From Propionibacteriaceae bacterium (GTDB taxonomy: Bacteria; Actinomycetota; Actinomycetes; Propionibacteriales; Propionibacteriaceae): a stretch of 36,579 nucleotides of DNA. Under the pieces are notes generated by a model. That model did not search any database, was not told the DNA's origin, and saw only the letters and a list, made by a program, of their open reading frames with translations. The stretch spans positions 1 to 36,579 of the forward strand of contig JAISTC010000107.1 in the NCBI GenBank assembly GCA_031272805.1. The letters run 5' to 3'. Positions within the stretch are counted from its first letter, which is position 1, and the number at the start of each line of letters is the position of its first letter. Positions 25,612 to 27,534 of this stretch are shown here, piece by piece. A program made the position numbers and the translations under genes.

Positions 25612-27534
25612 ATGGATGCGGAGGGGCGGCCGCTGACCGTGGCGGTGCTGGGGGCCGGGGCGCGCGGCGCCGGGTTCGGCGGCGTGCTGGCCCAGTGGCC
25701 GGAGCGGGCCCGGGTCGTGGCCGTGGCCGAACCCCGCCGCGAGGTCCGCCAGCGCTTCGCCCAGGTCCACCACCTGGCCAAGGACCAGGTCTTCGCGGAC
25801 TGGCGCGACCTGCTCGACCGGCCCCGCCTGGCCGACATGGCCATCGTGGCGCTGCCCGACCGGCAGCACGCCGACGCCGCCATCGGGCTGTCCAACCGCG
25901 GCTACCACCTACTCGTGGAATCCCCCATGGCGACCGACTGGCCGGGCTGCCTGGCCGTGGCCGACACGATCCGCCGCAACGGCACCGTCCTGTCGGTCGG
26001 CCACGTGCTCCGCTACGCCCCCTACGAGCGGACCATCAAGCGCCTGGTCGACCAGGGCGCCATCGGCGACATCGTCGCCATCGACCACATCGCCCCCATC
26101 GGCTTCCAGCACTTCGCCCACTCGTTCGTCCGCGGCAACTGGGCCCAGGAAGGGCAATCGAGCTTCATCCTGCTGGGCTTCGCGGGCCACGACATCGACT
26201 GGCTCCTCGACCTGGTCGGCGTCCCGGCCAAGCGGGTCTCGTCCCACGGCTCGCTGACCTACTTCCGGCCGGAGTCGGCGCCGCCCCAGGCGGCCGACCG
26301 CTGCGTCACGTGCCCGATCGAACGGGCCTGCCCCTACTCGGCGCCGCGGGTGTACCGGCGGGGCCAACCCCTGCCGGAAGCGGGCATCGGCTCCGCGCTG
26401 GCGGACATCGTGACCGGTGGAGACCCGTCGCCCGCCGCCCTCGACCGGGCGCTGGCGACGGGCCCGTACGGCCGCTGCGTCTACCGCTGCGACAACGACG
26501 CCCCCGACCACCAGGCCGTGTCGATCGAGTTCGCCAACGGCGTGACGGCGGCGCTGACCGTAACGGCGTTCACGCCGATGTCGAACCGGCGCACGATCAT
26601 CTTCGGCACCCTCGGGCAGTTGACCGGCGACTCCGACACGATCGAGGTCTTCGACTTCCGCAGCGGCCGGACGACGGTCATCGACGTCATGCGGGGGCGG
26701 ACCCGGGCGATGTTCACGCGCGGCACGGTCGAGTACCGGCTGCTCGACGCCTTCGTCAACGCGCTGCGCGACGGCCGGCGCGAGCTCATCGTGTCGGACC
26801 TCGACTCGACGCTGCGCGGCCAGTGGCTCGTGTTCGCGGCCGACGAATCGCGCCGCCAGGGCCGGGCCATCGACCTCGACGGCTACCCGCTCGACGCCGA
26901 GCAGCGGCTCATCGACCACATCCGGACGGGCGACCGGTCGGGCGCGGACCAGTTGATCGGCCAGTTGCTCGGCGCGCTGTACCTGAACAGCGCGGGCGAT
27001 TTCCAGGCGGTCCTCGACGGCGCCGCGGACCTCGTCACGCTGTTCACCCGCGCCGCCGTCGAGGGCGGCGCCGACGCGACGGTCGTGTTCGGCGAGAAGG
27101 CGGCGCTGACGCGCAAGCTGGCGGGGTTCACGACGGTCGACGAGGTGTCGACGTTCCTGGTCGACGCGTTCAACCGCTTCGTCGGTTACATCTTCGACTT
27201 CAGCCACGCGGACCACGCCAACGCGCTGCGCCGGGCCGTCGCCTACATCCAGGACCACTACGCGGAGCGCATCCGCCTGGCGGACGTGGCGCAGGCGGCG
27301 TTCCTGTCCCCCGCGTACCTGAGCCAGGTGTTCAAGGCCAAGATGGGCCAGACGTTCACGGACTACCTGGCGGACGTGCGCATCGACCACGGCAAAGAAC
27401 TCTTGGCCAAGACGGCCACCCCGATCAGCGAAATCGCCACGCGCGTCGGCTTCACCGACCAAAGCCACTTCACCAAGGTGTTCACGCGCTTGACCGGAAC
27501 GTCCCCCGCCCGCTTCCGCCGGTCAGGAGCCTAG
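25612..27534 (+). CDS. Fusion regulator: Gfo/Idh/MocA-like domain + helical linker + AraC-type HTH
   Basis: The ATG at 25612 gives 640 residues. Residues 1 to about 427 are a full-length Gfo/Idh/MocA fold paralogous to the enzyme at 15320, with shared runs such as HSFVRGNWA, GRCVYR and the C-x2-C-x5-C cluster (Cys231, 234, 240). The nucleotide loop VLGAGARG and HDID (193-196) remain, but the EKP catalytic lysine is Ser104 (ESP). Residues about 430-540 form a helical linker like those before AraC domains in PocR-type regulators. Residues about 545-638 are a double HTH (RLADVAQAAFLSPAYLSQVF and EIATRVGFTDQSHFTKVF). I infer a transcription regulator whose dehydrogenase fold senses a sugar or NAD(H), controlling the divergent operons at 22007-22268. 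No Shine-Dalgarno is obvious. Confidence 0.9.
   Translation: MDAEGRPLTVAVLGAGARGAGFGGVLAQWPERARVVAVAEPRREVRQRFAQVHHLAKDQVFADWRDLLDRPRLADMAIVALPDRQHADAAIGLSNRGYHLLVESPMATDWPGCLAVADTIRRNGTVLSVGHVLRYAPYERTIKRLVDQGAIGDIVAIDHIAPIGFQHFAHSFVRGNWAQEGQSSFILLGFAGHDIDWLLDLVGVPAKRVSSHGSLTYFRPESAPPQAADRCVTCPIERACPYSAPRVYRRGQPLPEAGIGSALADIVTGGDPSPAALDRALATGPYGRCVYRCDNDAPDHQAVSIEFANGVTAALTVTAFTPMSNRRTIIFGTLGQLTGDSDTIEVFDFRSGRTTVIDVMRGRTRAMFTRGTVEYRLLDAFVNALRDGRRELIVSDLDSTLRGQWLVFAADESRRQGRAIDLDGYPLDAEQRLIDHIRTGDRSGADQLIGQLLGALYLNSAGDFQAVLDGAADLVTLFTRAAVEGGADATVVFGEKAALTRKLAGFTTVDEVSTFLVDAFNRFVGYIFDFSHADHANALRRAVAYIQDHYAERIRLADVAQAAFLSPAYLSQVFKAKMGQTFTDYLADVRIDHGKELLAKTATPISEIATRVGFTDQSHFTKVFTRLTGTSPARFRRSGA

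Follow-up and report, generated by a model that had tools for sequence, protein, structure and literature searches.

A dehydrogenase-like domain without the conserved active-site lysines, fused to an AraC-type DNA-binding domain in a Propionibacteriaceae bacterium, is a candidate transcriptional sensor

Introduction

Gal80p of yeast, a transcription repressor with a Gfo/Idh/MocA-type fold, acts as a eukaryotic corepressor by binding to the activator Gal4p; it has no DNA-binding domain of its own, lacks enzyme activity, and binds NAD(P). The same fold is found in the Gfo/Idh/MocA sugar dehydrogenases and their relatives, which include inositol, levoglucosan and L-glucose dehydrogenases and the oxidoreductive sulfoquinovosidases. 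One-component regulators of the AraC/XylS type carry a C-terminal double helix-turn-helix (HTH), and their input is usually a cupin-like, periplasmic-binding-protein-like or PocR domain, not a whole dehydrogenase.

Here we describe a gene that joins these two kinds of protein in one chain. It lies in a window of 36,579 nucleotides, the whole stretch of DNA analysed, which is one whole contig of a Propionibacteriaceae genome. Gal80p was matched in both profile and fold searches (PDB 3e1k, 3bts, 3v2u) and is the closest analogue, with the differences that the fusion is bacterial and has its HTH in the same chain. With the Gfo/Idh/MocA enzymes the fusion has the fold, the GxGxRG loop and the HDxD motif in common; unlike them it is without the EKP lysine and a second lysine that is invariant in its subfamily, and it has an HTH appended. 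The C-terminal double HTH is common to AraC/XylS regulators in general, although the input domain differs. Five PocR-like AraC regulators (L003, L026, L047, L050 and L051) have both the linker and the double HTH in common with it at 50-59% identity; only these parts are shared, the pseudo-dehydrogenase standing in place of their N-terminal domain. The original prediction held that AraC regulators with a whole dehydrogenase as input are not a described class. This stands in so far as the listed titles and abstracts of the open-licence literature contain no report of a Gfo/Idh/MocA-AraC fusion, but it needs qualifying, as a non-fused eukaryotic parallel exists in Gal80p.

Results

The gene is a single open reading frame of 640 residues without an internal stop, and falls into three parts:

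25612..27534, + strand: fusion gene, Gfo/Idh/MocA pseudo-dehydrogenase plus helical linker plus AraC HTH (open reading frame, Pfam, GC3)
25612..26883, + strand: dehydrogenase-like domain, residues 1-424 (Pfam, predicted model, fold search)
26884..27216, + strand: helical linker, residues 425-535, common to the AraC regulators L003, L026, L047, L050 and L051 (alignment, model)
27217..27534, + strand: AraC double HTH, residues 536-640 (Pfam, solved-structure match)

Pfam places GFO_IDH_MocA at residues 9-131 (E 1.6e-16), the best stretch of GFO_IDH_MocA_C3 at 140-218 and GFO_IDH_MocA_C at 143-421. PF01408, PF22725 and PF02894 all exceed their cut-offs, and together describe the Rossmann N-terminal domain and alpha/beta C-terminal domain of the Gfo/Idh/MocA fold. 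HTH_18 follows at 560-637 (E 4.4e-24) and HTH_AraC in two stretches, both above curated cut-offs, with the AraC HTH contained within residues 546-637. Among solved structures, the first half matches many Gfo/Idh/MocA proteins and the HTH half matches the AraC DNA-binding domain 2k9s (E 5.8e-18), as expected of an AraC/XylS double HTH. The PocR domain PF10114 gave no Pfam match in the fusion at E<=0.01. A predicted model of residues 1-430 (mean pLDDT 67.7) matches whole members of the Gfo/Idh/MocA family in fold searches, with the cysteine segment at 214-299 poorly modelled. This dehydrogenase-half model was used in place of the full-length one, whose confidence is low (mean pLDDT 58) because few sequences were supplied. 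The Pfam matches, the fold search and the unbroken frame thus bear out the architecture put forward in the original prediction, namely a whole dehydrogenase fold as input domain joined through a helical linker to an AraC-type HTH, with GFO_IDH_MocA at the N-terminus and HTH_18 at the C-terminus.

GC3 is 0.97, 0.98 and 0.93 for residues 1-424, 425-535 and 536-640 respectively, and the frame 5' of position 25612 is without coding bias. The likeness of this bias in all three parts, and its absence upstream, make the start plausible and indicate that the gene is one unit.

Each half has a close relative in the same genome. That of the first half belongs to the same locus, at a distance of 9 kb:

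15320..16636, - strand: paralogous dehydrogenase with EKP and AKSCHDID intact, sister to the first half of the fusion (alignment, tree)

This paralogue is the top match of the fusion in all searches, at about 53-54% identity. A maximum-likelihood tree of 50 sequences pairs the first half with the paralogue (16636-15320, -) with support of 100/99, and does so again at 100/99 once six other long-branched rows are left out. The terminal branch of the fusion is long (0.63, or 0.71 without those six rows), and the paralogue is equally identical to L058 (54%) and to the fusion (54%), which together leave some uncertainty in the sister relation. With that reservation, the tree shows the first half of the fusion and the local operon dehydrogenase to be closest relatives in the examined set.

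From residue 424 onwards, the fusion matches L003, a regulator of 390 residues encoded on contig C42 of the organism's own genome (59% identity), with further relatives of the linker-HTH half in other genomes of the family at 50-59% identity. The five relatives read here (L049 was left out) each have a cysteine-containing N-terminal domain. PocR matches fall below the Pfam cut-off in L026 (0.11), L047 (0.022) and L050 (0.0034) and are absent from L003 and L051, so that the label 'PocR-like' is to be taken as a lead. Of the two regulators whose neighbours were read, L003 adjoins a gene for a B12-binding corrinoid protein and L026 adjoins the methanol methyltransferase MtaB. In the alignment, the fusion and four relatives share many invariant positions across linker and HTH. 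The fusion deviates at none of 21 conserved columns of its second half, all of them from the HTH part because one row, L030, covers only the HTH. Homology to the enzyme ends at residue 425 and homology to the regulator starts at residue 424. Alignment therefore shows the dehydrogenase half in the place that another, apparently PocR-like, N-terminal domain occupies in related AraC regulators.

The active site of the dehydrogenase half is altered at several conserved positions:

25921..25923, + strand: TCC, Ser104 instead of the EKP lysine (ESP); Lys in 99/99 unfused homologues
26092..26094, + strand: Ala161 instead of a conserved Glu; Glu in 97/99, Val in 2/99
26179..26181, + strand: Phe190 where a second Lys is invariant, three residues N-terminal to His193; Lys in 99/99
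26719..26733, + strand: HxGxD motif (370-374) replaced, R370, T372 and E374 (multiple and pairwise alignment)

Homologues came from genome searches, a genome-contig set and a viral-contig set. Fifty-three loci had a dehydrogenase match; four partial ones were dropped, and the first set consisted of 48 unfused homologues and the window paralogue. A larger set adds 40 from two other groups (20 chosen in one, 20 of the 24 listed in the other) and L122. Its 99 distinct unfused homologues, with the paralogue and partial ones included, are those read at the positions above, many class-wide, plasmid, 288- and 291-genome-set matches being left out. Across the 48 homologues of the first set, 40 columns are invariant. 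The fusion keeps 34 of these and differs at six (K104S, E161A, K190F, H370R, G372T and D374E); the paralogue departs at only one (D296N). Of 61 columns conserved to 95%, 9 are changed in the fusion, more than in any other of the 50 sequences, the next having five. The HxGxD motif itself is conserved in the multiple alignment (H 99/100, G 98/100, D 99/100), with more variation in pairwise alignment (H 89/99, G 92/99, D 97/99). Retained in the fusion are the GxGxRG nucleotide loop, the cysteines and HDID (193-196), whose H193, D194 and D196 are present in 99/99 unfused homologues.

A study of one characterised relative describes a catalytic triad made up of the EKP lysine, one aspartate and one histidine, and states, with data not shown, that alanine mutants of each are inactive (PMC5969746). 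The position of the triad aspartate is mostly Ala in the present subfamily (73/99), and an invariant Lys lies one residue further on. We infer that this subfamily lysine, at 190, is catalytic, and that E161, K190, H370, D374 and the HxGxD motif line the substrate pocket. The original prediction had named the exchange of the EKP lysine for Ser104, the intact EKP of the paralogue (codon at 16271-16273) and the retention of the nucleotide loop, HDID and the Cys cluster. All of these are seen in the alignment, and tabulating the EKP residue across homologues returned Lys in every unfused one. The loss is in fact wider than claimed, as K190F, E161A, H370R, G372T and D374E had been missed.

Taken together, these exchanges strongly imply that the fusion has lost catalysis. 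The protein could still be a trigger enzyme, catalytic through a rearranged active site and coupling turnover to transcription, and its fold, nucleotide loop and His193 are as such an enzyme would have them; nonetheless, with both invariant lysines and other conserved residues gone, and with each triad alanine mutant of the relative reported inactive (PMC5969746), we regard this as highly improbable. The fusion ranks as an AraC-type regulator on its HTH and as a Gfo/Idh/MocA protein on its fold, and its active site places it outside the enzyme family. NAD(P) may still be bound, given the retained GxGxRG loop.

No second fusion appeared in 1,915 genome look-ups, which comprise overlapping sets with partial scoring: the organism's own genome, 96 relatives, 198 genomes of the family, 394 of the class, 296 of the phylum, three genomes behind other loci, and 288, 348 and 291 genomes of three other groups. 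In the family, class, phylum and three other-group sets, scoring covered the best 3-6 candidates of each genome, at E limits of 1e-50 to 1e-75, so that a distant fusion could be missed. Among the matches listed, none to the dehydrogenase half extends beyond residue 451 except the fusion itself. The genome-contig set gave 10 loci, each matching one half only, and none of 27 plasmid records covers 80% of the fusion query. The viral contigs held no fusion and one unfused enzyme, L122 (1348-2913), a member of the same cysteine-cluster subfamily on a 127-kb IMG/VR contig, with 36% identity to the search query and EKP kept.

Ten of the homologues with long open frames were chosen for closer reading. 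Eight of these genes stop 1-79 residues past the match. In L147 and L156 the alignment passes the stop codon of the gene, to residues 441 and 498, and in L156 it runs into an apparent lipoprotein signal. What makes these frames long is an extension on the upstream side, in which the coding bias of the matched part is missing. For two of them, two ways of counting gave different frame lengths (780 vs 1796 for L147, 797 vs 1116 for L149). No match to the HTH half was found in the ten stretches at E up to 1e-3.

The fusion is therefore a singleton among the genomes searched, and it comes from a fragmented assembly of 239 contigs with 88.8% completeness. Together with its having the most deviations at conserved columns, this could suggest a misassembled contig or a decaying pseudogene. 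Against this, the frame runs without an internal stop, GC3 stays at 0.93-0.98 throughout and the HTH has no deviation at its 21 conserved columns. The two homologies meet in frame within two residues, at the borders of both domains, which, with the even GC3 and the sister gene of the first half on the same contig, makes an assembly chimera unlikely. We consider artefact or decay, taken together, very unlikely.

The surroundings of the fusion offer candidate targets:

16633..22099, - strand: putative sugar operon upstream of the paralogue, with a solute-binding protein, two UgpA/UgpE-like permeases and a DUF6259 protein; possible target (Pfam)
22099-20708, - strand: solute-binding protein
22100..22217, no strand: divergent intergenic region, candidate operator
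22218..24779, + strand: protein of 853 residues without a family assignment, transcribed away from the operon and a possible target (profile searches)
24784-25520, + strand: toxin-antitoxin pair (PIN toxin, Phd/YefM antitoxin) that separates the 853-residue gene from the fusion

For the 853-residue protein, nothing in Pfam scored above cut-off and no solved structure matched at E<=0.1; a glycoside hydrolase of unknown type would be our guess. As the Phd/PIN pair separates the fusion from this gene, the fusion is linked to the operon by proximity only. The two sugar permeases have homologues in 7 of 18 chosen neighbourhoods of homologous dehydrogenases (in L124, about 6 kb off), and the DUF6259 protein, the 853-residue protein and the linker-HTH half have them in none of the 18 (E 1e-8). 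Given these permeases, the enzyme half has its probable origin in sugar catabolism, and the adjacent operon would be the natural target. The neighbourhoods point to sugars as the ligand class, and no closer.

Searches for an operator returned only weak repeats in 21990-22280, a span that includes the 22007-22268 DNA named in the original prediction, and in 25480-25640. Three stretches that flank L003 and L026 served for six comparisons, and in none of them did the best shared 16-mer exceed the best of 12 shuffles. Scanning of 21900-28000 gave no promoter-like site and two terminator-like sites, against 1.9 expected.

Two further features of the window were recorded. Directly 3' of the fusion gene, 27533-27778 is a REP/REPIN-like repeat with a 72-nt inverted repeat pair; its core (27593-27621) has 210 copies in the organism's genome at up to three mismatches (93 forward, 117 reverse; reversed control 0), and one copy, at 35290-35318, lies inside the reading frame of a phosphoribosylglycinamide synthetase (35279-36466). 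Within 9227-11403, an AAA-ATPase_like/PDDEXK_9 protein (9227-10825, -) adjoins a divergent Imm48 protein (10951-11403, +).

Discussion

We propose that the fusion is a one-component regulator in which a duplicate of the operon dehydrogenase, now inactive, took the place of the original sensor, and that it responds to a ligand or to NAD(H) and controls nearby genes; we think this rather probable. Under this model, a duplicate of the operon dehydrogenase would have been fused to an AraC regulator, whose helical linker and HTH were kept, with duplication presumably preceding fusion. The fused copy would then have lost catalysis through the changes at the two invariant lysines and at further conserved polar positions. 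NAD(H) and/or a sugar-type ligand may be bound in the old cleft without turnover, and a resulting change in shape or oligomeric state may be relayed through the helical linker to the HTHs. The genes controlled would most likely be the ABC-transporter/DUF6259/dehydrogenase operon and the divergent 853-residue gene.

With E161, K190, H370 and D374 gone, it is less certain than the original prediction implied that the domain binds the substrate of the paralogue. As the conserved polar set is so widely changed, a change of ligand, or sensing of the cofactor alone, is no less likely than sensing of that substrate. The loss of these residues while 34 of 40 invariant columns stay could also be explained if the dehydrogenase domain were an oligomerisation scaffold, or if it sensed the intact paralogue through mixed oligomers, in a logic like that of Gal80 and Gal3. 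A close sister enzyme is encoded in the same locus, and a member of the family is reported to be a homotetramer (PMC5969746). However, the nucleotide loop and HDxD are both kept, although neither would be required for scaffolding alone, and we hold the scaffold or mixed-oligomer explanation to be unlikely. We give slightly less than even odds to a Gal80-like input domain built into the regulator, in which a dead copy of the operon's dehydrogenase reads a metabolite of the pathway or the NAD(H) state and the living parent copy stays nearby.

The fusion would, on this analysis, work most like a Gal80p joined to its own DNA-binding domain, provided that it is non-catalytic and regulatory, as we infer. 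As far as we have searched, such a sensor module of a one-component regulator is without precedent in the open-licence literature, and it has been seen once. If the proposal is true, the locus shows how one fusion converts a catabolic enzyme into a transcription sensor, with the intact enzyme and the regulator side by side; such a route has mostly had to be inferred from old cases alone, Gal80p among them. The protein offers a candidate redox or sugar sensor of a type for which our searches of that literature showed no report, and suggests a rule by which others may be found: Gfo/Idh/MocA proteins that are without EKP and are joined to an HTH.
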